The position numbers and the translations under genes were made by a program. Below, piece by piece: positions 9,923 to 17,092 of a stretch of DNA of 64,000 bases. The notes beneath the pieces were generated by a model, which was not told where the DNA came from, did not search any database, and was given only the letters and a program-made list of their open reading frames with translations. The stretch covers positions 3,100,001 to 3,164,000 of the forward strand of contig OZ004587.1 in NCBI GenBank assembly GCA_963924555.1, read 5' to 3'. The DNA comes from Crambe crambe. Lineage: Eukaryota; Porifera; Demospongiae; Poecilosclerida; Crambeidae. Within the stretch, counting starts at the first letter, position 1. Each line of letters begins with the position of its first letter.

Positions 9923-10717
<795 letters not shown>

Positions 10718-11702
10718 TCTTAAGTGTTTGGTTAGTTCGTTCATCCATAGATAATACAGTACCTCCAGTGGATATGAAATGCCCGCGTATACGGATGATA
10801 TACGGAGTTTTTGCGGAATAATCACTGTAACGCTTGACGACGATGTTCTAACTGCAACTGCAGCGCAGTTCTGTCCATTTCTCACTTTTCCTTTTCACTC
10901 CATGCAACTCTAGTGCGCGGAATTCACTAATATAATAGTCGAGTAAGTGAATGTTACTTAGTTTATAGCTTAAAACTACACCAAAAAATTAAGGGAGATG
11001 GTATTATATAGTTACTTGGACTGAAATAATACTTTTGTTAGATTATAATTATCATGCATTGAAAAAAAGAGCAACCTGAAAATCCTTACCTTGTGGGAGA
11101 CCGGGAGAAAGTAAAAACAAATGAAAAATATTGTTATGGTGGTTAAAAATAGCAACTCAAGACTCAATAATGGCTGACATGTTTGTTAGATTTTCGTCCA
11201 CATGATAATGTTGGGATAGCAATTTTTCACATCTTTATACAGTTAAAGGGTCAGTGCACCGGGAGAAAGTGTCATTTTCAGGGACTAGTCACTCCTTCAC
11301 ACTTTGTGGCACTATCAAAACACACATGCTGTCTCTATGTAGCTAATTGAAAAATTGCCTATGGCATAATTCAGTATTTGGACCATAAAAATGGCAACAA
11401 AGTTACAATAGCAACATTAATGTATCATTCAACCATTGGCATGCATAACTTAGTTCTAGGGACTGGCACATTATGCTTTTTTGCTTCCCTTATTCTATTC
11501 TTTAATTCCAGCTTTAGTAAGTCATTATTCTTTTTTTACTGACCTATTATTCTTTCATACCTTAAATAGCTAGCCATTTGCTTCTCACTATCACTAGCAG
11601 ACAAGTTTGGTCAAGTGTGTAGTCTCACACGTGCAGCTTTAAGGTAAATACAGGGGGCTTAGCTAGCTAGTTGTATAAATCTTGAGATTAGATACTGTAG
11701 CA

Positions 11703-14636
11703 ATGGAAAACCATTATACCAAATTTCGCAAAAGACGAAAAAAAGGAGCCAGATCAAGGTTTGATCAAAGGAAAAAAAAAACAGGACAAGGAAAACACTC
11801 CAATACCAACTCCTACCAGATGCTCACTACAGCCAAGCCTTCTACCTGGAAGATGGCAAGTGAATGTTGATACTACCAGCAACAGAATTCACTACTTCAA
11901 TATTGAAGAAGGAAGAGCCAGTGAGATGTGCCGAGTGGCATCCTCTATTACTGTACATAAAGACTGTTCATGGAGTGTTTTCTTTAGAGAAAAAAAATTT
12001 CTTCAAGCAATTCAATACTGTCTAGGTTTCCTGAGCACATCCATAAACCAGATATGCTGTTAGACTTAATTTCATCAGTGAACGAGGTAGCTTTGTGCCC
12101 AGGAAATCCAGAAGAGATGTGCTAAGGAAAAGGAAGAATGAAAATATGAGTGGAGAGAGGGGATTTGGTCCAATTATTGGTTACATAGATGAGAGTACTT
12201 TTCAAGGTATCTAATATAATATGTAGTATAGTGTCATGCATACTATTTTTCTAGCAACTGTGCGGAGTACTGATTGTGACGTGATTGGTGGAGCTGGTAG
12301 ATGTAAGTCATGCTCTCAGCTAAGACCTGCACTAAGGACAGCTGTATGCCGGCAAAAGAAAGTATCAACTGAAAATTTCAATCAACGCACATCTACAAGT
12401 AGCCATGCAACATATCATAGTCTCACATCTGAAGAAAAGGACAAAAGATTGAGGAATATCCACCACTCCCTCATTGAAACCAGGAAGAAAAACACAAAAT
12501 TAGAGAGCAGGATTAGCAGATTAATCAATGATCAAGCAATTAGTCTTGAAGACAATGATGCAGCAGATATAATTTCACTCATATCAGATGTGCATCCAGT
12601 TGTTCAAGATAGCTTTCCACCAGATAGTCCCCAAAGAATTTTTTGGGATCAGCAGTTACTTTACAATAGAGTAGCTGACACGAGGCAGATGAGATGGGAC
12701 CCACTTATCATCAGATTTGCTCTAAATCTAAAGTATTTATCGACCTCTGCATACAGAGCATTACGTAAAAGTGGTATCATCCATTTGCCAAGTGAACGAA
12801 CATTGTCAGATTACACACACTGGTCTTCCTCTCAAACCAGCATTAATCTGGACTACATTGAAGAGTTTATAAGAATGATGCAGGATGTAACCACTTCTCA
12901 CTTCCAGTGTGCTTTGTCTATGGATGAAATGAAAATAAAAAGTGGTTTAGTGTTTGATAAACATAACGGTTCTTTAGTTGGCTTTGTTGATCTTGGAGAG
13001 GTCAATCATTCTATTGAAACACTAATGAATGGAGAGGATGAAAAGGGAACTCAGCTTGCTGATGCATATGTGTTTATGGCAAGGGCAGTTTTTAAGCCAT
13101 CGTTATCAATGCCAGTTGCCCATTACTTTAGCTTGAATTTGAAAGGTATGATCTAGCATATAAAGTAAGAGTATGAGAAACTAATTAAACAATAATTATT
13201 GAGATAATTATATCACTGTTATAGCTACTTGTGTAATTATAATTGTTTAGTTACTTAGTGATTCCTTTTTATATAGTTCCCACCACCACGTATTTTCAGT
13301 TGAGCATTTATAGCTACTATGCAATGCAATGTAGGTGCATGTTTACTATCACTCCATTATGTAGGTGAAGAGATATATCCACTTGCATGGGAAGTGATCG
13401 AAGCACTTGAGATGTATGATATACCTGTTGTCTCACTTACAAGTAATGGAGCCAAGCCAAACAGAAAATTTTATAGAATTTGCCAAGCTGGGAGAAGATT
13501 GGTACCATTCAAATCTATCAATCCCTTCCAGAAAAATCAGGATATCTTTTTTTTCTGTGATGTACCTCACCTTTTGAAGACTGCCCGAAATTGCTTCAGC
13601 AATTCATTTTCTCATTCCTGCAGTCGAAAGATGCAAGTAATAACCATAGCCATAGCTATATAGGCATTGCATGTGGTACCATTTACTTATTGTGGATTTG
13701 CAGAAAAATGGCCAAGCTATTTCTTGGAAATGGATAGAACACCTCTACCTCACTGAAAACTCAAGTGATACACCTGGTGTTCAGATGTGTCATAAGCTTA
13801 CGAAGGATCATGTGTGGCTTACTTCTTTTACCAGGATGAGGGTCTACTTAGCAGCCCAAGTTAGTCAATAATGATTACTATTGATCTTGGCTACATATAA
13901 TTATTGTTGTGCAGGTGATGAGCGAAACTGTTGCATGTGGTTTACAGATGCTGAATGAAGAGAATACTCGGGAAACACGCATCTTTATCAGGATGATGGA
14001 TAAATTTTTTGATTGCCTCAATGTAAAAGGTCCAATGATGGGTATTTTGAAAAGAAAAGAGAATTTGAATCCATACTCTAGTCATAGAGACGAGAGATTT
14101 GAGGTATGATAATGCAAATCAATTGACTGATAGCTAGTATAGCTAATGTAACCCTACAGTGGCTATTTTCTGGGCTATTTGAAAGAGTGGGAAGATGAGT
14201 GTAAGTCTCTCCCTGTAAGGAGGAAAGAGCAAATGAAATGCTGCTTGAGCAGGGAAACACTAGAAGGATTGAAGATTACAGGTAAGACTAATGATTGTGT
14301 ATAATTGTGTAGCTACATTTATTGTGGTTTCTAGTCAACTCTTTCACTGAATTGGGTCCAAACTTACTGAAGTTGGAAGGAGTGAAGTATCTTCTAAGCG
14401 AAGTTTTCTCCCAGGACCCTTTAGAACACTATTTCAGTCGACAACGTCACAGAGGAGGAAGTTGTGATAACCCATCAGCATATCAAATTCCATACAATGC
14501 CTCTACTTTAGTGCAGCAGAGATCCGTTTATAGGGATTTAAAAACAATGAATGTGCAGGCAGATGAAGAATACAATTTGCAGGTAGCTTCAGAACCACTT
14601 AGAAAAAAGGCACGCAGACATGCATCAAAACTTTAG
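11703..14636 (+). pseudogene. P-element/THAP9-family transposase gene, degenerate
   Basis: Seven exons are proposed: 11703-12206, 12255-13145, 13365-13636, 13704-13859, 13915-14103, 14160-14281 and 14335-14636. Family motifs appear in order: FWDQQLLYNR, SAYRALRKSGIIHLPSERTL, LSMDEMKIKSGLV (first RNase H aspartate), PLAWEVIEALE, LTSNGAKPNRKF, PHLLKTARN and DPLEHYFSRQR with RGG-CDNPSA (last acidic residues present). The usual TSDG aspartate appears as N, possibly a catalytic loss. No THAP zinc finger precedes it; the N-terminus is a basic stretch (HYTKFRKRRKK). Exon 1 has frameshifts near the A-run at 11770, near 12025 and near 12115. Exon 6 is one base out of frame. The protein would cut and paste the element in the nucleus; this copy is unlikely to do so. 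Confidence 0.85.
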
Positions 14637-14733
14637 TCACCCTTGAATTAGTTCACACATTAGCTAGCTATAACACACACTCAAATTAATGCCAATAATG
14701 ATTAGTAATGATGATGATGACGACATGATATAT

Positions 14734-15945
14734 TCAAACAGTTACACTTTCTTTTTTGGTTGTGGCAAGTGATTTTCTAGTTCCTTTTGCATACTTTTTC
14801 TCAAATTTCATAGTCCATCCTTTAGCAAATGAAAAGCCACGGATGGTAACCTATAATTCCGTAATCACTGAGAGAAGTTCTATGCTATATTTTTCGAATT
14901 TGGATGGAATATCCCCAGCAATTATTTCCCAACATTCCATAATGTCATAACTATTAAGAACATGTTCACACACAGCCCCAATTAGATCAGTACTCTTGTG
15001 ATATTCTGCTTGGATACTAGATATGTTTAAGTAGTGACGTACCACCATTTCGATGGATTCAATCAAACTAAAAACATCATCACTGATATGGTACAGGCCA
15101 CCTCTGTCAATCAACTCCATCCAAAGAGTGCTGTATTGTGATGGAGATTCTGGATCACCTGGCTGTTCGAGTGCCTTCATTTTTCAAGTGTATGGACAAA
15201 CAACTTATGCTTCTGCTGAATTTTATTGTTTTTATAGGATCGTCTATATTTTTTCAGTAGCTTAACTGCAATGTAACCAGCCATGTATCTGATGGAGTTA
15301 CTTTCGATCAATGTGAGTGGTCTAACTTTGCATTCAGCCCGTTGTTTCAATGAATCAGATGTACGTTTGATGAACATTTTTAGTCCTCTGTCTAATAAAA
15401 CCTGCAGTGTGAATTCACCCTCCTTAGTATACATATCAGGAATACTCTAATTGATAAATGTAGTCCATGCAAGCTGAATGTTTTCTTGAACCCGTAGTTT
15501 ATGAAATGCTGACCATATTGCAACATGCAAGACTGAAGGCAGCCTATGCTTATTTCCACATTCAATACATTTGTTCAACTCTGAAATAAGAAGGCTTGCA
15601 ATGCTGATGATTGTAGAATGGTCCAAATCCTGTATGCATTCCAGGAGCTCTCCTATTCTTTTCCCTTTTGGAGAACGCTTAATTAATTCTTCTTTTAATA
15701 TATTAAATACTGTAGAGAGGAAAAGATCACAACATTCATGTTCCCCCATGGATTTCTCACTGGTTGCTACTTCTTGTATCACAGATTGTGTCTGCATAAT
15801 GATAATAAATAAAATTGTTGCACTAAAACTATAAACATACATTTTTCTTAGTAACTAAAATAATTTCTTTGCATCCATTTTCTTCAATCTCTTCTTCAAA
15901 TAAACTTCCTTCACTCTCTGTCTCAATATCACTATTTGACTCCAT
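14734..15945 (-). pseudogene. Unknown second protein of the P-type transposon, decayed
   Basis: Exon 1 (15945-15841) starts MESNSDIETESEG and is acidic. A 49-bp intron (GTATGT...TTATGCAG) leads to exon 2, from 15791. The frame runs through SVIQEVATSEKSMGEHECCD, a leucine-rich helical stretch, and TQ..AWTTFIN. It then meets a single in-frame TAG (about 15447), continues with SIPDMYTKEGEF, LIESNSIRYMAGYIAVKLL and LFVHTLEK, and has a one-base frameshift at an A-run near 15178. Next come YSTLWMELIDRGGLYHISDD and ECWEIIAGDI, a TAG at about 14851, and VTIRGFSFAKGW with a lysine-rich tail to the stop at 14734-14736. Total length would be about 385 residues. It is not a transposase by motif and I do not recognise a named domain. 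It may be an accessory factor encoded with the transposase. Confidence 0.65.
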
Positions 15946-16111
15946 GAGCCGGCCGTCTCCAGTGCTAGTGGCTATTCCGCCATAGAAACCCGTAATTTAC
16001 TATTGTATCCGTGCGCGTAGTCCGTGACCGCGCGTTACAGTGATTGAATTGCCACAATGATTAAAATCCGGAAACATTTCACATCCATACGGAGTATTTA
16101 TATTATCTATG

Positions 16112-17092
16112 GTTCATCTAAGCCATTTGATTGTGGATGGTATGGTGAGGTAATCCGCATTTTGACCATAAACCTTTGATGAAGTGTTTCAATAAGCTTT
16201 CAATATAAAAAGATTAACTTTACAAGGAAATTAACAGTCAGCTATTATAAAAAAATACCTGATTCGTAAACTCCTTTCCCTGATCACAAATAATGCTCAC
16301 AGGAGCTCCATGTCTATAATACACCTTGTAAATAGCTTTGGCCACTGAGATTGCTGATTTATCTTCTATCGGCACTGCTTCAAAATAGTCTGTCATTGTG
16401 AGGATATATGAGAAATTGGCACTTTTTTGAAAAGGACCATTCCAACCAGATACCACACCTGTGGCTCAACAGCTACTGGTTGAAGCTCAACTACAGCTTT
16501 TTTGAGCTGTGATGCATTCCTTTGGCACCTGTCACATCTCTTGATCTGCAGAAGTAGAACCAATTAAGGTCCCTCAGAATCAGTTAGTACATAGCATTGA
16601 TAAATCAACAGAAATCCACACTGGATAACTGTAAACACACACGGGTAATGCCTGCACACCCATTAAAGAACTATATATTTATAAGGAAGAAATATCATGG
16701 GAGGAAATTACCGTATTATTACCTATAAAAACTTTTCTTTACCATGTAACAAAAAGTGAACCTATGCTTAAACACAAACCTTTTCTTCAATTTCTTTGTA
16801 GTAGAGAGGCCAATAGTATCTTTCCTTTATCTTACTCATGATAGCATCCCTCCCTCTGTGACCACCAGTAGTCAAATGACATTCTAAAAAAGCCCTTTCA
16901 GTTTCTTCTTTACCACATAGTACTAAACAATTAAAGGAAGTGCCATCAGGTCTTTTCAAAAGTGAGAAGTTCGTGCTACGAAGGAGTAGTATCCATTTTT
17001 CGTAGCACGAACTTCTCACTTTTGCTGTATCCAAGGGGATATTTTCCATCATTAATATACAGGTACAGAGCTTCATATTTTTTATCATCCAT
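16112..17092 (-). pseudogene. Integrase gene, 5' part (split by the P-type element)
   Basis: Exon 1 starts at ATG 17092 (MDDKKYEALYLYINDGKYPL), typical of GIN-1 and Ginger-like integrases. It includes the HH half of the zinc finger (HLTTGGHRGRDA, YYWPLYY) and ends at a donor at 16779. Exon 2 (16545-16259) supplies the CxxC half (IKRCDRCQRN), then the rve core: TMTDYFEAVP (first D) and CDQGKEFTNQ (second D). Exon 3 (from 16196) carries the TSPYHPQSNGL motif up to the P-element insertion. The E of the DDE triad lies at the insertion. The frame breaks within exon 1 at a 26-bp palindrome and once in exon 2 near 16440. The sequence is therefore decayed apart from the transposon insertion. Confidence 0.85.

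Follow-up and report, generated by a model that had tools for sequence, protein, structure and literature searches.

We analysed a 64,000-nucleotide stretch of the genome of the sponge Crambe crambe (contig OZ004587.1 of GCA_963924555.1, positions 3,100,001 to 3,164,000), here called the window, in which a P-type transposable element carries two convergent genes. One, T, encodes a transposase on the plus strand, and the other, B, lies on the minus strand.

Ends of the element and the transposase gene

The window element spans 5,366 bp (10746-16111). Its terminal inverted repeats (TIRs) share the core CATAGATAATA, exact over 11 bp at 10746..10756 (plus strand) and 16101..16111 (minus strand), and are flanked by an exact 7-bp target-site duplication (TSD), GTTCATC, at 10739-10745 and 16112-16118 (assigned to neither strand); both features had been reported in an earlier, sequence-only reading of this DNA and are confirmed here. 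Beyond the core, matching between the ends is gapped and weaker across the first 80-88 bp. Further in, each end carries a copy of a 14-bp subterminal inverted repeat, AATCACTGTAACGC, at 75-88 bp from the terminus on the left (10820..10833, plus strand) and at 67-80 bp on the right (16032..16045, minus strand).

TSD length was assessed in 140 candidate end pairs from the window and the other loci examined, each checked for duplications of 6, 7, 8, and 9 bp. An identical 7-bp duplication was present in 17 pairs, or 14 once overlapping loci were removed, 3 of these belonging to other families with related ends, while identical 6-, 8-, or 9-bp duplications were absent from all 140. The 7-bp TSDs vary in sequence between copies. 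The window flanks, joined with one TSD and used as a query, gave 14 rows, two of which are the window's own halves; the other 12 match across the junction at other genomic places with 93-96% identity, indicating that related empty sites exist. The left-end and right-end DNA have 47 and 53 genomic matches, respectively, many of them partial. The insertion lies in a dispersed repeat, and the flanking frames at 10313-10564 and 16238-16465 (both minus strand) appear integrase-like by eye. No excision footprint was found at the window site, and among the 57 loci examined only L047 has one: at 1576-1593, CATAGATAATTATCTATG stands between AGTAGAG and AATAGAG and resembles a footprint in which the inner parts of both ends were lost.

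Gene T has seven exons and six introns, with splice sites placed by eye, in agreement with the minimum of six introns proposed earlier. Exon 1 (11703..12206) encodes a non-THAP N-terminal region. Exon 2 (12255..13145) holds a C..C motif, the helix-turn-helix (HTH) region, and the first half of the RNase H domain with the first catalytic Asp (SMDEM), and exon 3 (13365..13636) holds the second catalytic position and a DVPH motif. The GTP-binding domain is encoded by exons 4 (13704..13859; 22.0 bits in Pfam, under the cut-off on its own) and 5 (13915..14103; 29.1 bits), exon 6 (14160..14281) follows, and exon 7 (14335..14636) encodes RNaseH_C with a DPLE motif, with a stop soon after and no C-terminal domain.

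In the plus-strand exons, Pfam places RNaseH_N, the GTP-binding domain, and RNaseH_C over their cut-offs and HTH (PF12017) at 22.3 bits, just below its cut-off of 23, so that the assignment to the P/THAP9 family stands; no THAP match was found in these exons, as the sequence-only reading had also stated. The spliced T protein of a relative, L036 (803 aa, exons joined by hand), scores 82 bits for RNaseH_N, 68 for the GTP-binding domain, 26 for RNaseH_C, and 23.2 for HTH, and shows neither THAP (PF05485) nor the P-type C-terminal domain (PF12596) in Pfam at E-values up to 1. A T profile finds the Drosophila P transposase structure 6p5a_A (3.8e-7). The motifs SMDEM, SDGAK, DVPH, and DPLE of L036 correspond to the catalytic D, D, E and D(2)H, and a hand count on the alignment puts SMDEM and SDGAK at residues 230 and 303 of 6p5a_A. 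DPLE falls within the RNaseH_C match, and its Glu is presumably the last catalytic residue. The T chain stops about 65 residues past this motif. In the zebrafish protein THAP9, residue 679 is the last catalytic Glu, and positions 920-929 form helices close to the C-terminus (PMC10983969). In place of THAP, the aligned T proteins share a conserved N-terminal stretch that contains a CPGN-like motif and, in L036 (6140-6665, minus strand), RCKSC after it; Pfam matched nothing in this stretch for either the window exon or L036.

The second gene and its pairing with the transposase

Gene B was resolved by eye into two exons, its stop codon lying 97 bp from that of T, just as the sequence-only reading had described. 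Exon 1 (15841..15945), which matches L033 3127-3228, encodes a short acidic N-terminus. Exon 2 (14734..15791) encodes an N-terminal helical domain and a P-transposase C-terminal domain, the domain identity being taken from relatives. B thus comprises an acidic tail, a helical domain some 150 residues long, and then the putative P-type domain; its C-terminal tail is basic in all eight B sequences counted. Pfam returned no family above cut-off for B, and PDB sequence searches gave either nothing or two coatomer chains at E-values of 0.2 and 0.93. Sequence profile and fold comparison of relatives both point to one domain of the P superfamily, the fold match being far ahead of the next, and the P-transposase C-terminal domain is the most likely identity of B on these grounds. 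Each single statistic is modest, and residues 1-150 gave no outstanding match in the VIA-align fold comparison.

The window element is a coding-dead, decayed copy. In alignment with intact relatives, T exon 1 runs through three frames and contains stops, Asn at about 13445-13447 stands where L033 and L036 have the second catalytic Asp, and B is interrupted by two in-frame stops and shifts frame once relative to the intact L033 protein; hence neither protein can be made whole. The description of the element as complete therefore holds for its structure (ends, TSD, and both genes) but not for its coding capacity.

Genome-wide, at least 158 T loci were obtained by merging a search with the window exons (138 pieces) and with PF21787 (150 pieces), and at least 166 B loci by merging four B queries; the counts that follow concern loci among the matches listed, with a neighbour limit of 8 kb. 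A convergent B accompanies 102 of the 158 T loci, three have a tandem B only, and 53 have no listed B. Seen from B, 102 of 166 loci are convergent with T, 5 are tandem only, and 59 have no listed T. The median spacing of matched T and B pieces is 1,377 bp. Adding two B queries and extending the limit from 6 to 8 kb raised the convergent T loci from 88 to 102. Pairing by chance is ruled out, as random placement of B (approximate contig sizes, 1,000 trials) gave on average 4 and at most 12 T loci with a neighbour. Among the listed loci, B is not found mainly outside P elements, which had been named as an outcome that would speak against the two-gene lineage. For THAP, 29 of the 30 genomic matches were compared with the T loci (the 30th lies 100 bp from one of the 29), and the closest is 8.5 kb away from any of them.

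Eight full-length two-gene copies of 5.05-5.96 kb have their own exact 7-bp TSD (the window, L034, L035, L036, L037, L038, L040, and L046). Together with the convergent pairs, they support the proposal of a distinct two-gene lineage without THAP.

The two ends of L036 agree exactly over their first 35 bases. The B genes of L036, L037, and L038 show no differences over 345 codons, T exon 2 differs between L036 and L039 at two sites in 294 codons, and eight places belonging to another family encode a 320-aa B product with 100% identity (rounded); such near-identical copies suggest recent movement. Between L033 and L036, the share of nonsynonymous sites that differ is 36% in B and 23% in T exon 2, against 88% and 82%, respectively, for synonymous sites. 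These ratios indicate that purifying selection acts on both T and B and that both are kept as proteins.

Several rearranged or nested relatives were also seen. L034 (1255-8112) shows a nested insertion: the two-gene element lies within an outer element whose ends are related (CATAGATATTAGACACGG), which has a 7-bp TSD of its own and contains additional B-like fragments. At L048 (3757-9108), T is preceded on the same strand by a B-like gene, and this locus accounts for two of the three tandem T entries. A non-autonomous element of 1,384 bp at L050 (7132-8515), related to the window element and with TSD CCTATAC, still has the start of gene B, and at L049 (6553-8559) a 668-aa frame, retrotransposon-like by eye, adjoins a two-gene element. 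Outside this genome, neither B and T searches of viral contigs nor a T search of prokaryote genomes gave relatives, these being collections that contain no animal genomes. Cnidarians and molluscs also have similar B and T proteins among their unnamed proteins.

A probable split P-like transposase

These observations probably reflect a P-like cut-and-paste lineage whose transposase consists of two polypeptides, each encoded by one of the convergent genes, the window holding a coding-dead copy; the case for a lineage is made by shared layout and sequence. The computed support comprises the pairing, the purifying selection, the lack of THAP and of a C-terminal domain in T, and the combined fold and profile match of B. 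T would be the catalytic subunit, with its N-terminal region in place of THAP, an HTH, and an RNase H domain with GTP-binding insertion, and would bind the ends and cut. B, with its acidic tail, helical domain, and counterpart of the Drosophila P C-terminal domain, would join T in trans as a second subunit and hold the looped single-stranded end of the transposon, and its basic C-terminal tail may hold target DNA. These are the roles that the C-terminal domain of Drosophila P performs within one chain. As that domain sits on a flexible linker, it could be supplied as a separate subunit; docking through the helical domain (residues 1-150 of B) might then take the place of the covalent link.

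Some of the counts weigh against the two-gene lineage, namely the 59 B loci without a listed T and the five in tandem only. Seven of the 59 were inspected: T remnants are present at L047, L051, and L052, L042 has the same ends with an internal deletion between them, and no T was seen at L043, L044, and L045. Single-gene relatives may also exist among the 53 unpaired T loci.

An alternative that we regard as unlikely is that B derives from the P C-terminal domain and acts as a repressor or regulator, like truncated Drosophila P proteins, and is dispensable for transposition. Drosophila P makes its 66-kDa and KP repressors from the same sequence as the transposase (PMC7776569), and a separate gene could be dosed independently. 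However, because T ends about 65 residues after DPLE, no other source of the C-terminal domain is seen in the element, and B adjoins T at 102 of its 166 listed loci. B is moreover retained across divergent families; in the divergent set A2, identity to the L036 B is 22-27% in six of seven rows and 44% in the seventh.

Slightly less probable still is that B is an unrelated accessory protein, comparable to KolX in Kolobok, and that its fold and profile matches are a chance likeness of helical proteins. Accessory genes occur in several Kolobok lineages and were thus recruited in a superfamily other than P (PMC9587614), and each single statistic for B is modest. Profile and fold comparison nevertheless converge on a single P-superfamily domain, and the next-best fold match is far behind. 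Nested insertion of two unrelated elements, despite the nesting seen at L034, is rejected as the origin of the T-B pair and has a negligible probability, as 102 convergent pairs are listed at a median spacing of 1,377 bp and a single set of ends and TSD encloses both genes in eight copies.

With Drosophila P and zebrafish Pdre2-THAP9, the sponge element shares the RNase H catalytic domain with GTP-binding insertion, the HTH and the catalytic residues (both in L036), short TIRs, and subterminal inverted repeats; Pdre2 TIRs also begin CATA (PMC10983969). Whereas those elements encode THAP and C-terminal domain in a single chain and have an 8-bp TSD, the sponge element lacks THAP on T, carries the C-terminal domain on an opposite-strand gene with an extra helical domain, and has a 7-bp TSD (in 14 end pairs). 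As both THAP and a same-chain C-terminal domain were tested for and absent, we place it in a P-like lineage with a probably split transposase, outside the P elements in the strict sense.

Galileo of Drosophila is not known to carry a second gene. It also belongs to the P superfamily and has mostly 7-bp TSDs but differs by long TIRs and a THAP domain (PMC4168063). RAGL/ProtoRAG elements likewise have two convergent genes inside TIRs and TSDs (PMC7204232), but encode RAG1L/RAG2L proteins, the partner with kelch-PHD, and have a 5-bp TSD; no sequence relation was seen. T has P-type Pfam domains in place of a RAG1-like core and B matches no family over cut-off, kelch and PHD included. Kolobok Kol0 with KolX also combines a DDE transposase with a second gene (PMC9587614), but has another transposase, a KolX with P2X7 ballast fold, and a TTAA target, unlike the varied 7-bp TSDs found here. 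A literature search of the top-ranked titles and abstract openings, with Repbase and most subscription journals outside it, found no two-gene or split P transposase.

Among eukaryotic transposons the P element is the textbook case, with a transposase known as a single chain. If the split holds true, a lineage with the DNA-holding domain as a separate protein would be a natural test of that domain's role and a second convergent two-gene cut-and-paste system beside RAG1L-RAG2L. It would also suggest an identity for a large protein family that lies below the cut-off of every Pfam model. More tentatively, and with rather less confidence than in the split itself, the elements could represent a deep P-type lineage with an obligate two-subunit transposase, the C-terminal domain acting in trans, and this state could be ancestral, the single-chain P/THAP9 form arising by fusion and THAP capture. 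If the split state is indeed the older one, THAP9 and Drosophila P would both originate by fusion.
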